From contig PEAN01000039.1 of the NCBI GenBank assembly GCA_002753735.1, forward strand, positions 1 through 36,008: 36,008 nt of DNA. Direction: 5' to 3'. The position numbers and the translations under genes were made by a program. Shown here piece by piece: positions 31,554-35,907 of the stretch. The notes under the pieces were generated by a model. That model was not told the DNA's origin. It ran no database searches and worked only from the letters and a program-made list of their open reading frames with translations. The stretch is from Magnetococcales bacterium DCbin4 (lineage in GTDB: Bacteria > Pseudomonadota > Magnetococcia > Magnetococcales > UBA8363). The first letter of the stretch is position 1. Each line of letters opens with the position of its first letter.

Positions 31554-31862
31554 TCAAGCCAGGCGCAGACGCTCCACCGGTTTGCCTTTGTCGAGGTGTT
31601 CATCGAAAATCGCCACCACGTCTTCGGGTTTCACCCGGCCATACCATACGCCATCGGGGTAGACCACCACCGTGGGGCCATGGTCACACGGTCCCATGCA
31701 AAAGGTTCCCGTCACCTGAACCTTTTCAAACAGGCCCCGTTTTTCAACTTCACCCGCCAGGGCCTCGAACACGCTCCCCGCCCCGACCGATCCGCAGGAA
31801 CCCCGGGGATGCCCGGCGGGCCGTTGATTCATACAAACGAAAACATGGTGCTTTGGTTTCAT
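31554..31862 (-). CDS. Thioredoxin-like [2Fe-2S] ferredoxin
   Basis: A 102-residue soluble protein with the four-cysteine pattern of thioredoxin-fold [2Fe-2S] ferredoxins: Cys10, Cys23, Cys55 and Cys59, the last two in FCMGPCDHGP. The N-terminus KPKHHVFVCMNQRP and the segment VVVYPDGVWYGRV...DVVAIFDEHL are typical of this family (also seen at the ends of NuoE-like proteins). The ATG at 31862 has AGGAG 7 nt upstream. It carries single electrons, and the partner is unknown. It is transcribed divergently from dsrC, which suggests, without proving, a link with the Dsr redox unit. A promoter-like TTGACA/CAGAAT pair lies about 85 nt upstream. Confidence 0.9.
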   Translation of the reverse strand: MKPKHHVFVCMNQRPAGHPRGSCGSVGAGSVFEALAGEVEKRGLFEKVQVTGTFCMGPCDHGPTVVVYPDGVWYGRVKPEDVVAIFDEHLDKGKPVERLRLA

Positions 31863-31947
31863 GGATCCTCTCCTGATCTCAAGTGTTTGTTCATCGCGCC
31901 ACACCGATCACATCAGCGCACACCAACCGGTCCTTTGAACGGCCTCA

Positions 31948-32090: not shown

Positions 32091-32118
32091 TTGCTGTTCA
32101 AGTGAATCATGATATACT
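32091..32118 (+). promoter_or_regulatory. Candidate sigma-70-like promoter of the dsrCMK unit
   Basis: TTGCTG (32091-32096), a 16-nt spacer, and TATACT (32113-32118), with an upstream T of the -10 in a TGATATACT context. It points towards dsrC and is the only good -35/-10 pair I see in this gap on the plus strand. Transcription would begin near 32125. Confidence 0.55.
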
Positions 32119-32251
32119 GATACTGCCCGAGCCTGAACGGCAGAGCCGAATTTTTGCCGAAAACCGGATTCCAGCGTTTCAGACGCTTTTGGATCAATTT
32201 ACCTTTTTGTTTGATTAAAAAAACATCTCAAATACCAAGGAGTTGCCTGTT

Positions 32252-32587
32252 ATGCCAAGCTTTGAACTGAATGGCCGTACCTATGAAACCGACGAGGACG
32301 GATATTTGATCAATCTTTCCGACTGGAATGAAGAGGTTGCGGCCTATGTCGCCAAACAGGAAAATGTCGATATGTCGGAAAATCATTGGGAGGTTGTCAA
32401 TTTCCTTCGTGAATACTACGAAGAATACAAAATCGCCCCCATGATCCGCATCCTCACCAAAGCCATCGGCAAGAAGCTTGGCAAGGAAAAGGGCAACACC
32501 AAGTACCTTTACGATCTCTATCCGGGTGGACCTGCCAAACAAGCCTGCAAAATTGCCGGTTTGCCCAAGCCGACCGGTTGCGTCTGA
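32252..32587 (+). CDS. dsrC: DsrC/TusE-family sulfur-carrier protein
   Basis: A 111-residue DsrC. The N-terminal SFELNGRTYETDEDGYLINLSDWNEEVA and the central HWEVVNFLREYYEEYKIAPMIRILTKAI are family signatures. The C-terminal arm carries both redox cysteines, Cys99 and Cys110, separated by ten residues and ending GCV. Having both separates true DsrC, which forms an intramolecular trisulfide or disulfide, from TusE-type proteins with only the last cysteine. DsrC carries sulfur or electrons between cytoplasmic sulfite/sulfide chemistry and the membrane DsrMK complex. The ATG at 32252 has a perfect AAGGAG 9 nt upstream. dsrM follows after 128 nt containing a stem-loop. The pairing with dsrM and dsrK supports the assignment. 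Confidence 0.95.
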   Translation: MPSFELNGRTYETDEDGYLINLSDWNEEVAAYVAKQENVDMSENHWEVVNFLREYYEEYKIAPMIRILTKAIGKKLGKEKGNTKYLYDLYPGGPAKQACKIAGLPKPTGCV

Positions 32588-32604
32588 AGCCTGCCACGTC
32601 CTCA

Positions 32605-32643
32605 GGGCTTCTCCATGGGACTTTTGTGCCTGAGGAGAAGCCC
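32605..32643 (+). promoter_or_regulatory. Strong stem-loop between dsrC and dsrM
   Basis: GGGCTTCTCC (32605-32614) and GGAGAAGCCC (32634-32643) form a perfect 10-bp stem with a 19-nt loop, extendable by three pairs past a single bulged base. CTCAGG (32601-32606) and CCTGAG (32629-32634) form a competing shorter stem. There is no U-run after it, so it is not an ordinary intrinsic terminator. A role in protecting the dsrC transcript end or lowering read-through into dsrM is plausible. Confidence 0.6.
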
Positions 32644-32715
32644 GAGAACTGGTTTCCTGGAGCCGGGAACACTGTTTGCGTGCATGATCTTTAACCCCAA
32701 AGATGGAAAAGCCGG

Positions 32716-33432
32716 ATGTTGACCTACCTTGCCTACATCGTTGAGGGGATTTTTTCCATTGGGTTTTTATGGAAAATCTTCGTTTATGCCCGATCCCCGG
32801 CACCACTGCTCATTCCCACCACGCCGGCACCTGTCACACGCAGTGGCGTCGTATGGCGTTTGTTTCGGGAAGTTGTTTTTTTTGAAAGCCTGTTCAAGGC
32901 GGACAAGCTGTTATGGATTGTCGGTTACGCCTTTCACGCCGCGCTGGCGTTGGTATTGATCCGTCATATTCGTTATTCTATCGATCCCCTGCCCGAATTT
33001 TTCGCCCACTATCAAATTGTTGGCATCATGGCGGGTCTCGTCATGGTCGGTGCATTGGCATTTTTGCTGGCACGGCGTTTTGTGATCGACCGGGTACGGC
33101 ACATATCTTCACCCGCCGATTATCTTATTTTATTACTGCTTCTGGGCATTGGCACCTCCGGCTTGCTGATGGATTTCATTTTGCGGCCAGACATCGTCGC
33201 CATCAAACATGCGATGACCACGCTATGGACATCATCGGCGGCAAGCCTTTCAATGGCCAGCCCGGGCGATGTCGTGTTCATCCTTCATCTGATCATGGTG
33301 GCAGCCCTGATCATCATTTTTCCCTTCAGTAAATTGATGCATCTGGGGGGCATCTTTTTCAGCCCGACACGAAATCAGGTGGACAATCCAAGGGAACAAC
33401 GTCACATCAATCCCTGGTATGTCGAAAAGTAA
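32716..33432 (+). CDS. dsrM: DsrM-like cytochrome b membrane subunit (NarI family)
   Basis: A 238-residue membrane protein with about five hydrophobic segments: LTYLAYIVEGIFSIGFLW, LLWIVGYAFHAALALVLI, QIVGIMAGLVMVGALAFLLA, YLILLLLLGIGTSGLLMDF and VFILHLIMVAALIIIFPF. Histidines placed in these segments (GYAFHA, LIRHIRY, FILHLIM, KLMHL) suit axial haem b ligation, as in the nitrate reductase gamma subunit/DsrM family. It would move electrons between the quinone pool and DsrK on the cytoplasmic side. It is shorter than many DsrM proteins (about 330-400 residues), so it may lack some N-terminal segments; TmcC-like proteins are an alternative. The ATG at 32716 has only a weak purine stretch upstream. 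dsrK follows after 54 nt. Confidence 0.78.
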   Translation: MLTYLAYIVEGIFSIGFLWKIFVYARSPAPLLIPTTPAPVTRSGVVWRLFREVVFFESLFKADKLLWIVGYAFHAALALVLIRHIRYSIDPLPEFFAHYQIVGIMAGLVMVGALAFLLARRFVIDRVRHISSPADYLILLLLLGIGTSGLLMDFILRPDIVAIKHAMTTLWTSSAASLSMASPGDVVFILHLIMVAALIIIFPFSKLMHLGGIFFSPTRNQVDNPREQRHINPWYVEK

Positions 33433-33486
33433 CGGTGCAAGCGACCCCGACTTTTCCTTTATCGTCACAATCCCGAGGATTCACCG

Positions 33487-34986
33487 ATGGCCGATCATGA
33501 GGTTCCCAAACTCCAGGATGATATTGAAACCCCTGCCTTGAAGCCGGGCAGCATGGGTCACCTGGCACCTTACCCCGCAGGCGAAAAGCATATGAAACCT
33601 CTTGGCTTTCCCGAAGCCAGGGTGCCGGATTGGGAAAAGCGGGGTGTGGAAAAGCTTGGAGAGATGCTCAAGAAATATCGTTCGCTCCAGGTTTATATGG
33701 ACATTTGTGTCAAATGCGGTGCCTGCACCGACAAATGTCACTATTATCTGGGGACCGGTGATCCCAACAACATGCCGGTTCAGCGCGCCGAGTTGATGCG
33801 TAGTGTCTATCGCCGTTACTTCACCCCGGCGGGACGGATGTTTCCCGATCTGGTCAAGGCAAAGAATTTTGACGAAGAGACATTGAAGCAATGGTTCACC
33901 TACTACCATCAATGTTCACAATGTCGCCGTTGTTCAGTTTTCTGCCCCTATGGCATTGATACTGCTGAGATTACCATGGCTGCCCGGGAGATCATGGATG
34001 CCATCGGCGTCGGACACAAATATACCGCCGAGATTGTCAGCAAGGTGCATGAGATCGGCAACAATCTGGGGATTCCCAAGCCGGCCCTCTCGGGGACGTT
34101 GCAGTTTCTCGAAGATGACATGCTGGAAAATACCGGCCATGAGATCAAGCTGCCTTTGGATCAGGAAGGTGCTGAAGTATTGTTGGTCGCCCCTTCCGCC
34201 GACTTTTTCAGCGAGCCACATATTCAATCGCTCATGGGATACGCCAAGGTATTTCACCAGGCGGGCATTTCCTACACCATCAGTTCCTATGCTTCGGAAG
34301 CGGCCAATTTTGGCATGTTCATTGGGAGTTTCGAGCAGAAGAAAAAAATTTCCAAACGGATTGCCGAACAAGCCCGTGCGTTGAAGGTCAAGCGGATCGT
34401 GGTGGGTGAATGCGGCCATGCCTGGCGGGTCGCCTACAGTTTTTGGAACACCTTGAATGGGCCGTTCGACTTTTTGGACAAGCGTTATCCGGTGCCACAG
34501 CACATTTGTGAATTCACCCATGACTTGATCCAGCGGGGTGCGTTGAAGTTTGACAAGGAAGCCAATGACGATTACAGGGTGACGATGCATGATTCCTGTA
34601 ACGTGGCACGGGCTTCCCGCATGGGACCCAATCCCGGCGGGCAGTTTACCATTCCGCGTGATCTGATTCGTGCCACCTGCAATCATTTCGTGGATATGGA
34701 TGAAGATACCATCCATGAAAAAACCTTCTGTTGCGGTGGTGGCGGTGGCTTGCTGACCGATGAATTGATGGATTTGCGCATCCAGGGGGCGCAACCTCGG
34801 GTGACCGCACTTAAAAAGGTCATGAAGGAACACAAGGTCAACTTTTTGGCTTTGATTTGCGCCATCTGCAAAGCTCAATTCAATAAAATTCTTCCCATGT
34901 ACGGCATCCCCATGGATACGGTGGGGGGGGTGCATCAGCTTGTCAGCAACGCCATTCGCCTGGGGGTCAACAAGGGGATTGTTTGA
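33487..34986 (+). CDS. dsrK: DsrK, iron-sulfur subunit related to heterodisulfide reductase HdrD
   Basis: A 499-residue cytoplasmic iron-sulfur protein. Two [4Fe-4S] ferredoxin motifs, CVKCGACTDKC (residues ~75-85) and CSQCRRCSVFCP (~143-154), are followed by HdrD-type CCG-domain elements: MHDSCN (~365), FCCGGGGGLLTDE (~414) and ICAICK (~458-463). These build the unusual [4Fe-4S] site that handles disulfides in HdrB/HdrD. DsrK is thought to reduce or oxidise the DsrC cysteine pair, exchanging electrons with the DsrM haems. The ATG at 33487 has GAGGA 7 nt upstream. It is the last gene of the unit, with an intrinsic terminator 18 nt after its stop. TmcB-type proteins are close relatives, but the adjoining dsrC makes DsrK the better name. 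Confidence 0.88.
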   Translation: MADHEVPKLQDDIETPALKPGSMGHLAPYPAGEKHMKPLGFPEARVPDWEKRGVEKLGEMLKKYRSLQVYMDICVKCGACTDKCHYYLGTGDPNNMPVQRAELMRSVYRRYFTPAGRMFPDLVKAKNFDEETLKQWFTYYHQCSQCRRCSVFCPYGIDTAEITMAAREIMDAIGVGHKYTAEIVSKVHEIGNNLGIPKPALSGTLQFLEDDMLENTGHEIKLPLDQEGAEVLLVAPSADFFSEPHIQSLMGYAKVFHQAGISYTISSYASEAANFGMFIGSFEQKKKISKRIAEQARALKVKRIVVGECGHAWRVAYSFWNTLNGPFDFLDKRYPVPQHICEFTHDLIQRGALKFDKEANDDYRVTMHDSCNVARASRMGPNPGGQFTIPRDLIRATCNHFVDMDEDTIHEKTFCCGGGGGLLTDELMDLRIQGAQPRVTALKKVMKEHKVNFLALICAICKAQFNKILPMYGIPMDTVGGVHQLVSNAIRLGVNKGIV

Positions 34987-35003
34987 TCTGAGGGTGCTTC
35001 GAT

Positions 35004-35064
35004 AAAAACACATGACAGGTGGAGAGAATGATCCGCTCCACTTGTTTTGTGTTTTTGCTTTTTC
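35004..35064 (+). terminator. Long intrinsic terminator after dsrK
   Basis: AAAAACACA (35004-35012) pairs with TGTGTTTTT (35048-35056), and inside it CAGGTGGAG (35016-35024) pairs with CTCCACTTG (35036-35044) with one G-U, leaving an 11-nt loop. U-runs at the base of the stem and in the following GCTTTTT complete the structure. It begins 18 nt after the dsrK stop. Confidence 0.75.
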
Positions 35065-35082
35065 AAAAACATGAATCAACAC

Positions 35083-35118
35083 CCTGGGGGCAGTCCCTTA
35101 AGCCCCCTTTTTTCTTTC
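35083..35118 (+). terminator. Second terminator after dsrK, also one copy of a dispersed repeat
   Basis: GGGGGC (35086-35091) and GCCCCC (35102-35107) pair around a 10-nt loop and are followed by TTTTTT, a textbook intrinsic terminator. The whole element is matched, in reverse orientation, by the sequence at 35974-36008 with only a few differences. Confidence 0.75.
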
Positions 35119-35187: not shown

Positions 35188-35907
35188 ATGATCCGACGCA
35201 ACCAACGCAGTCCCGATCAACTGCGGCCCATCACCATCACCCGCTCTTTTGTTGATCACGCCGAAGGATCCTGTCTCATTACTTGCGGCAATACCCGTGT
35301 TTTGTGCACCGCCTCAATCGAAGAAAAACTCCCTTTCTGGATGCGGGACCAAAATCGAGGCTGGATCACTGCGGAATACGGAATGTTGCCTCGTGCGACC
35401 CATACACGCACTGTCCGTGAGGCATCCCGGGGAAAGCAGTCGGGACGAACCTTGGAAATTCAACGTTTGATCGGACGTTCCATGCGCGCCGTGGTCAATC
35501 TTGAAAAATTGGGGAAACGGACGATTTGGATCGATTGCGATGTCATTCAAGCGGATGGTGGAACCCGTACCGTTTCGATTACGGGGGCCTTCATTGCATT
35601 GATGGATGCCTGTCGGCGTCTGCATGAAGGGGGTCTCCTATCTGAACTGCCGATCATCGATTACATTGCCGCTGTGAGCAGTGGCATGGTTCAGAATGTC
35701 CCCATGCTCGATCTGGATTATGATGAAGATTCCCACTGCCAAACCGACATGAATTTTGTCATGACCGGTTCCGGTCGTTTCGTCGAAATCCAGGGAACCG
35801 CCGAGGGGTCACCTTTTTCCCGGCAAGAATTTGATTCGATGCTTGCCCTGGCAGAAAAGGGGATTAAAGAACTCATTGAACTTCAACGAAAGGCCCTGAA
35901 TCCCTGA
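35188..35907 (+). CDS. rph: Ribonuclease PH
   Basis: A 239-residue RNase PH, the usual length. It trims tRNA 3' ends by phosphorolysis in the cytoplasm as a hexameric ring. Signatures include the N-terminal [58 protein letters not shown], the active-site region [48 protein letters not shown] and [12 protein letters not shown]. The ATG at 35188 (MIRRNQRS) has AAGGAA 5-6 nt upstream and matches the family N-terminus; the frame is open farther upstream but that part overlaps terminators and is not expected in RNase PH. A TACAAT hexamer at 35164-35169 could be its -10 element, though I see no good -35. Two terminators separate it from dsrK, so it is probably its own transcription unit. Confidence 0.96.

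Follow-up and report, generated by a model that had tools for sequence, protein, structure and literature searches.

The DNA analysed here (36,008 nt; called the window below) is the entire contig C20 of a 4.52-Mb Magnetococcales MAG (148 contigs, 96% complete). Pfam and NCBIfam profile matches demonstrate an intact dsrC-dsrM-dsrK unit at 32252–34986 on its + strand. The first gene, dsrC (32252–32587, +), encodes a sulfur carrier of 111 aa (PF04358, 7e-48; TIGR03342, 1.5e-49), the best structural relative of which is the Allochromatium vinosum-type DsrC 1yx3 (E 1.8e-50). Its start at 32252 is backed by an AAGGAG motif ahead of the ATG codon, which is kept in each of the six sequences compared at genus level. 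The protein carries the two conserved C-terminal cysteines of a catalytic DsrC, C99 and C110, both of them invariant among 78 sequences. The second gene, dsrM (32716–33432, +), encodes a NarI-like b-type cytochrome membrane subunit of 238 aa (PF02665, 1e-12; NF038037, 1.8e-50). H74, H84, H191 and H209 of this subunit are invariant and H230 is 98% conserved (81 sequences), so that the NarI-like heme histidines of a DsrM from the DsrMKJOP complex are in place. The protein misses the NF038037 cut-off, as does canonical sulfur-oxidizer DsrM. The third gene, dsrK (33487–34986, +), encodes an HdrD-like Fe-S/CCG-domain subunit of 499 aa (NF045796, 576 bits at a cut-off of 400). As in DsrK of the DsrMKJOP complex, it contains two 4Fe-4S motifs and the CCG cysteines C371, C415, C416, C458 and C461, which are invariant in 83 sequences. 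The named loci nearest by DsrK are those of Magnetococcales MAGs (91–93% identical). Judged from these alignments, DsrC, DsrM and DsrK keep the residues required for function, and the presence of both redox cysteines in DsrC and of an intact CCG domain in DsrK, recognized already in the initial annotation, is confirmed. DsrM had been described there as short. This idea was dropped after a length comparison: among sulfur oxidizers a DsrM of 238 aa is of nearly normal size (~242–253 aa in the canonical ones), and the subunit is short only against sulfate reducers.

The unit is preceded by a predicted promoter, TTGCTG-16 nt-TATACT (32091–32118, +), with an extended −10 element (TGA before the −10, its TG sitting one base before the −10). 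The site scores under the threshold of the consensus scan. Both of its elements are conserved within the genus, TTGNYG...TATACT being kept in 6/6 genus-level sequences compared, which agrees with the promoter proposed earlier for this position. As for the two terminators proposed after dsrK, the first terminator-like hairpin (35005–35060, +) has a T-rich tail and is strong (−25.3 kcal/mol, z = −5.1), its core being found by a motif scan as well. The second one (about 35085–35113, +), a GC stem GGGGGC...GCCCCC followed by TTTTTT, is weaker and not significant alone (−12.8 kcal/mol, z = −1.1).

The unit is flanked by a divergent gene of a 2Fe-2S (thioredoxin-like) ferredoxin (31554–31904, −; NF041613, 2.8e-30, below the cut-off of this family) and by the downstream rph gene of RNase PH (35188–35907, +; TIGR01966, 2e-114), which is not part of the Dsr pathway; synteny supports both assignments. 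With these genes on its flanks, dsrCMK is not the remainder of a longer dsr operon truncated where the contig stops, just as had been assumed. In several other Magnetococcales, the single-contig genome G038 included, rph begins only 7–30 nt past dsrK, and the closed downstream end is therefore a local rather than a general feature. A conserved dsrK-rph terminator was considered and rejected, as the gap varies from <10 to several hundred nt and its hairpins are unrelated among loci. A homologue of the ferredoxin gene is located beside dsrC in nearly all Magnetococcales, and none was detected near the dsr genes of other taxa. It is possible that this ferredoxin serves as a redox partner.

One more hairpin, GGGCTTCTCC...GGAGAAGCCC, was found by folding z-scores in the gap between dsrC and dsrM (32600–32650, +). 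The gaps examined were this one and those of loci L004–L027, L028–L083, L127, L131 and L132. A strong hairpin occupies the dsrC-dsrM gap in 28/28 Magnetococcales loci (mean z −3.1). It is also present in most canonical operons with a similar mean z of −2.7 (−0.47 in the dsrM-dsrK gap taken as a control), and the assumption of an order-specific hairpin was rejected for this reason. The stem sequences are unrelated between lineages. Since the hairpin in this genome is devoid of a U-tract, its likeliest role is that of a processing or stabilizing element of dsrC mRNA; possibly, it is a recurrent post-dsrC element yielding DsrC in excess over DsrMK.

The initial annotation had pointed out that dsrAB and dsrJOP are missing from the unit, and no linkage of either to dsrCMK was found on contig C20. 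Both were located on other contigs by a genome search that also covered dsrEFH. The genes dsrA-dsrB-dsrL lie on contig C146 (locus L086:8569–12933), with DsrAB scores of 491.7 bits (TIGR02064) and 460 bits (TIGR02066), both over the cut-off. The DsrL encoded there has 625 aa and a YRR motif, i.e. it is of the DsrL-2 type; a run of N (an assembly gap) follows directly downstream of its gene. The genes dsrE-F-H-J-O-P lie on contig C129. The products of the last three are 41–46% identical to Cocleimonas DsrJ, DsrO and DsrP (tblastn), DsrJ having three CXXCH motifs, and no C, M or K gene adjoins them. The genome thus contains dsrL and dsrEFH of the oxidative Dsr pathway and the DsrJ, DsrO and DsrP components of the DsrMKJOP complex. 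The aprA gene is found on contig C138. Instead of a single contiguous dsrABEFHCMKLJOP operon, the parts list is distributed over three blocks on separate contigs (dsrCMK, dsrABL and dsrEFHJOP), with aprA on a fourth one. The whole MAG (96% complete) contains one single DsrK and one complete canonical DsrC. A diverged DsrC-family paralogue on contig C55 (L087:7282–7734; 150 aa, 31% identical) is devoid of both C-terminal cysteines; it is encoded near two multi-CXXCH cytochrome-like proteins.

The locus was compared with 80 loci from a one-genome-per-species scan and with three whole-genome loci. A dsrC-dsrM-dsrK block without any other dsr gene nearby was found in 27/27 related Magnetococcales loci (a count that excludes the window and in which a few loci may be one species held in both collections). 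The divergent 2Fe-2S ferredoxin gene is nearly always present upstream of the block, and rph usually downstream. As revealed by tblastn with the Cocleimonas reference operon, the loci of other taxa nearly all follow the order dsrABEFHCMKLJOP as far as the contig extends, the clearest exceptions being a Nitrospirae MAG (L029) and a Spirochaetia MAG (L037). Genome G038 is a single 4.72-Mb contig with dsrCMK at ~52 kb, dsrEFHJOP at ~2.11 Mb and dsrABL at ~2.65 Mb. The three blocks are far apart on one contig, which means that the split is real and is not an assembly effect. Of 48 genomes searched in the order, 40 have a DsrK, 42 a DsrA and 43 a DsrE scoring above the cut-off, and 41 gave DsrP matches; the corresponding numbers for the 27 high-quality genomes are 27 (DsrK), 25 (DsrA), 27 (DsrE) and 26 (DsrP).

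Identity of DsrA to the protein of this genome splits the loci into two types, 70–100% (type II) vs 46–50% (type I). All fetched loci were typed by this identity and by the DsrL motif, and part of them were taken into a DsrA tree. Type II is accompanied by a DsrL of about 625 aa with YRR wherever the full DsrL was checked, whereas the full-length DsrL of type I has 574–604 aa and does not match the YRR motif. Both DsrABL types are present in ten genomes, together with one DsrK. Type II alone is present in about fifteen, including the near-complete G003, G004 and G033 as well as this genus, where the divergent (type II) DsrABL with YRR DsrL is the only type found. In the tree (small outgroup, midpoint root), DsrA of this genome belongs to a separate long-branch clade, outside the group uniting proteobacterial and MC-1-type oxidative sequences and away from sulfate-reducer chains. 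A third kind of DsrAB, 43–50% identical, was seen in G014 (L108, G014:C77); it adjoins dsrEFH, and in the tree its long branch joins reductive-type chains, for which a transfer or a binning error would account.

Most probably (we put the probability at about 0.92), dsrCMK of the window is a block of a complete, genomically dispersed oxidative (reverse) Dsr pathway. If established rDsr biochemistry applies, DsrEFH, encoded elsewhere, would load sulfane sulfur onto DsrC, and DsrMK together with JOP would oxidize the persulfidated DsrC to a trisulfide with the transfer of electrons to the quinone pool. The middle sulfur of the DsrC trisulfide would then be oxidized to sulfite by DsrAB-DsrL, the electrons passing to NAD(P), and AprA with its partners would take sulfite towards sulfate. 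Of the two alternatives offered in the initial annotation, the unit serving dsrAB located elsewhere is borne out by dsrABL on C146, dsrEFHJOP on C129 and the single DsrK; the stand-alone dithiol/disulfide-quinone module is not.

In 'Ca. Magnetaquicoccus inordinatus' UR-1, the divergent DsrABL is known as a second copy without an assigned role (PMC6783814). In the present genome, where EFH, C, MK and JOP are all complete, the divergent DsrAB is the only one; this suggests that the divergent DsrABL can run the oxidative pathway alone; the type II enzyme likely works in the oxidative direction. More tentatively, and with the odds rather against it, DsrC/DsrMK may form an uncoupled hub in this order, so that two reductase modules, MC-1-type DsrABL (non-YRR DsrL) and divergent DsrABL (YRR, NADP-type DsrL), are interchangeable and can each be served by the one dsrCMK and the one dsrEFHJOP. 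Of these modules, the divergent one seems to be the only one in use in this genus. The second DsrAB of the order, which has no assigned role, becomes testable in those Magnetococcales, some of them about 100% complete, that have the divergent copy as their sole DsrAB.

It is improbable that dsrCMK and the divergent DsrAB-DsrL-2 operate reductively, i.e. in sulfite or sulfate reduction. Such a direction would be consistent with the position of DsrA outside the main oxidative clade and with the YRR motif, the mark of NADP-type DsrL-2, which occurs with reductive DsrAB too (PMC7596348). However, dsrEFH is present on C129, a 2023 survey (PMC10591310) states that Magnetococcia DsrL-2 clusters with organisms whose oxidative metabolism is verified or indicated, and both DsrAB copies of UR-1 were assigned to the sulfur-oxidizing group (PMC6783814). 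Even less probable is a stand-alone DsrC-DsrMK dithiol/disulfide:quinone module independent of DsrAB. The predicted promoter and terminators of dsrCMK would suit such a module, as would genomes G001 (99% complete) and G025 (96%), where DsrK and DsrE are present and dsrAB was not detected. Looser dsrB searches in genomes without dsrA gave weak matches only (E of at least 4e-4 in G001 and G025; 2e-6 in G007). But DsrA is found in this genome, as in 25/27 high-quality genomes of the order, a second DsrK is absent from it, and G001 and G025 are draft assemblies of 230–430 contigs, in which the absence of dsrAB is most simply attributed to missing contigs. For this locus the question of a stand-alone respiratory module is closed, the unit being part of a full rDsr pathway. 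Finally, a second complete dsrCMKJOP cluster elsewhere would make this dsrCMK a paralogue with another function, a case raised in the initial annotation and one to which the DsrC-like protein on C55 might point. This case is already refuted, unless such a cluster lies in the ~4% of the genome that is missing: DsrK is single, dsrABL and dsrEFHJOP lie on other contigs, JOP is without C, M or K, and the C55 protein is only 31% identical and has no C-terminal cysteines.

Among known systems, the rDsr operon dsrABEFHCMKLJOP(N) of sulfur-oxidizing Proteobacteria has its literature example in Allochromatium vinosum. The canonical operons of this kind in the Cocleimonas, Thiogranum and Magnetospirillum loci encode the same proteins, with DsrK about 58–66% identical and a DsrM that resembles the one here in length and shares its histidines; DsrC here is closest to the A. 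vinosum protein, and most of these operons have a hairpin after dsrC, as here. In contrast to them, the genes are divided here among three blocks, of which dsrCMK is equipped with a predicted promoter and terminators of its own. The likeness to DsrMK(JOP) of sulfate reducers consists in a DsrK above the family cut-off and a NarI-like DsrM, but the sulfate-reducer model DsrM is about 80 aa longer, the canonical sulfur oxidizers being likewise shorter. The scattered Magnetococcales dsr set was already partly reported for UR-1, with dsrABL, dsrC and a dsrFEHJOP cluster (PMC6783814). Our locus comparison shows that UR-1 (L009) carries the same dsrC-dsrM-dsrK block; it has two dsrABL copies, whereas this genus has the divergent type only, with YRR-type DsrL. 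What the locus represents is a known system, dispersed in a way that the whole order conserves, and not a new stand-alone system.
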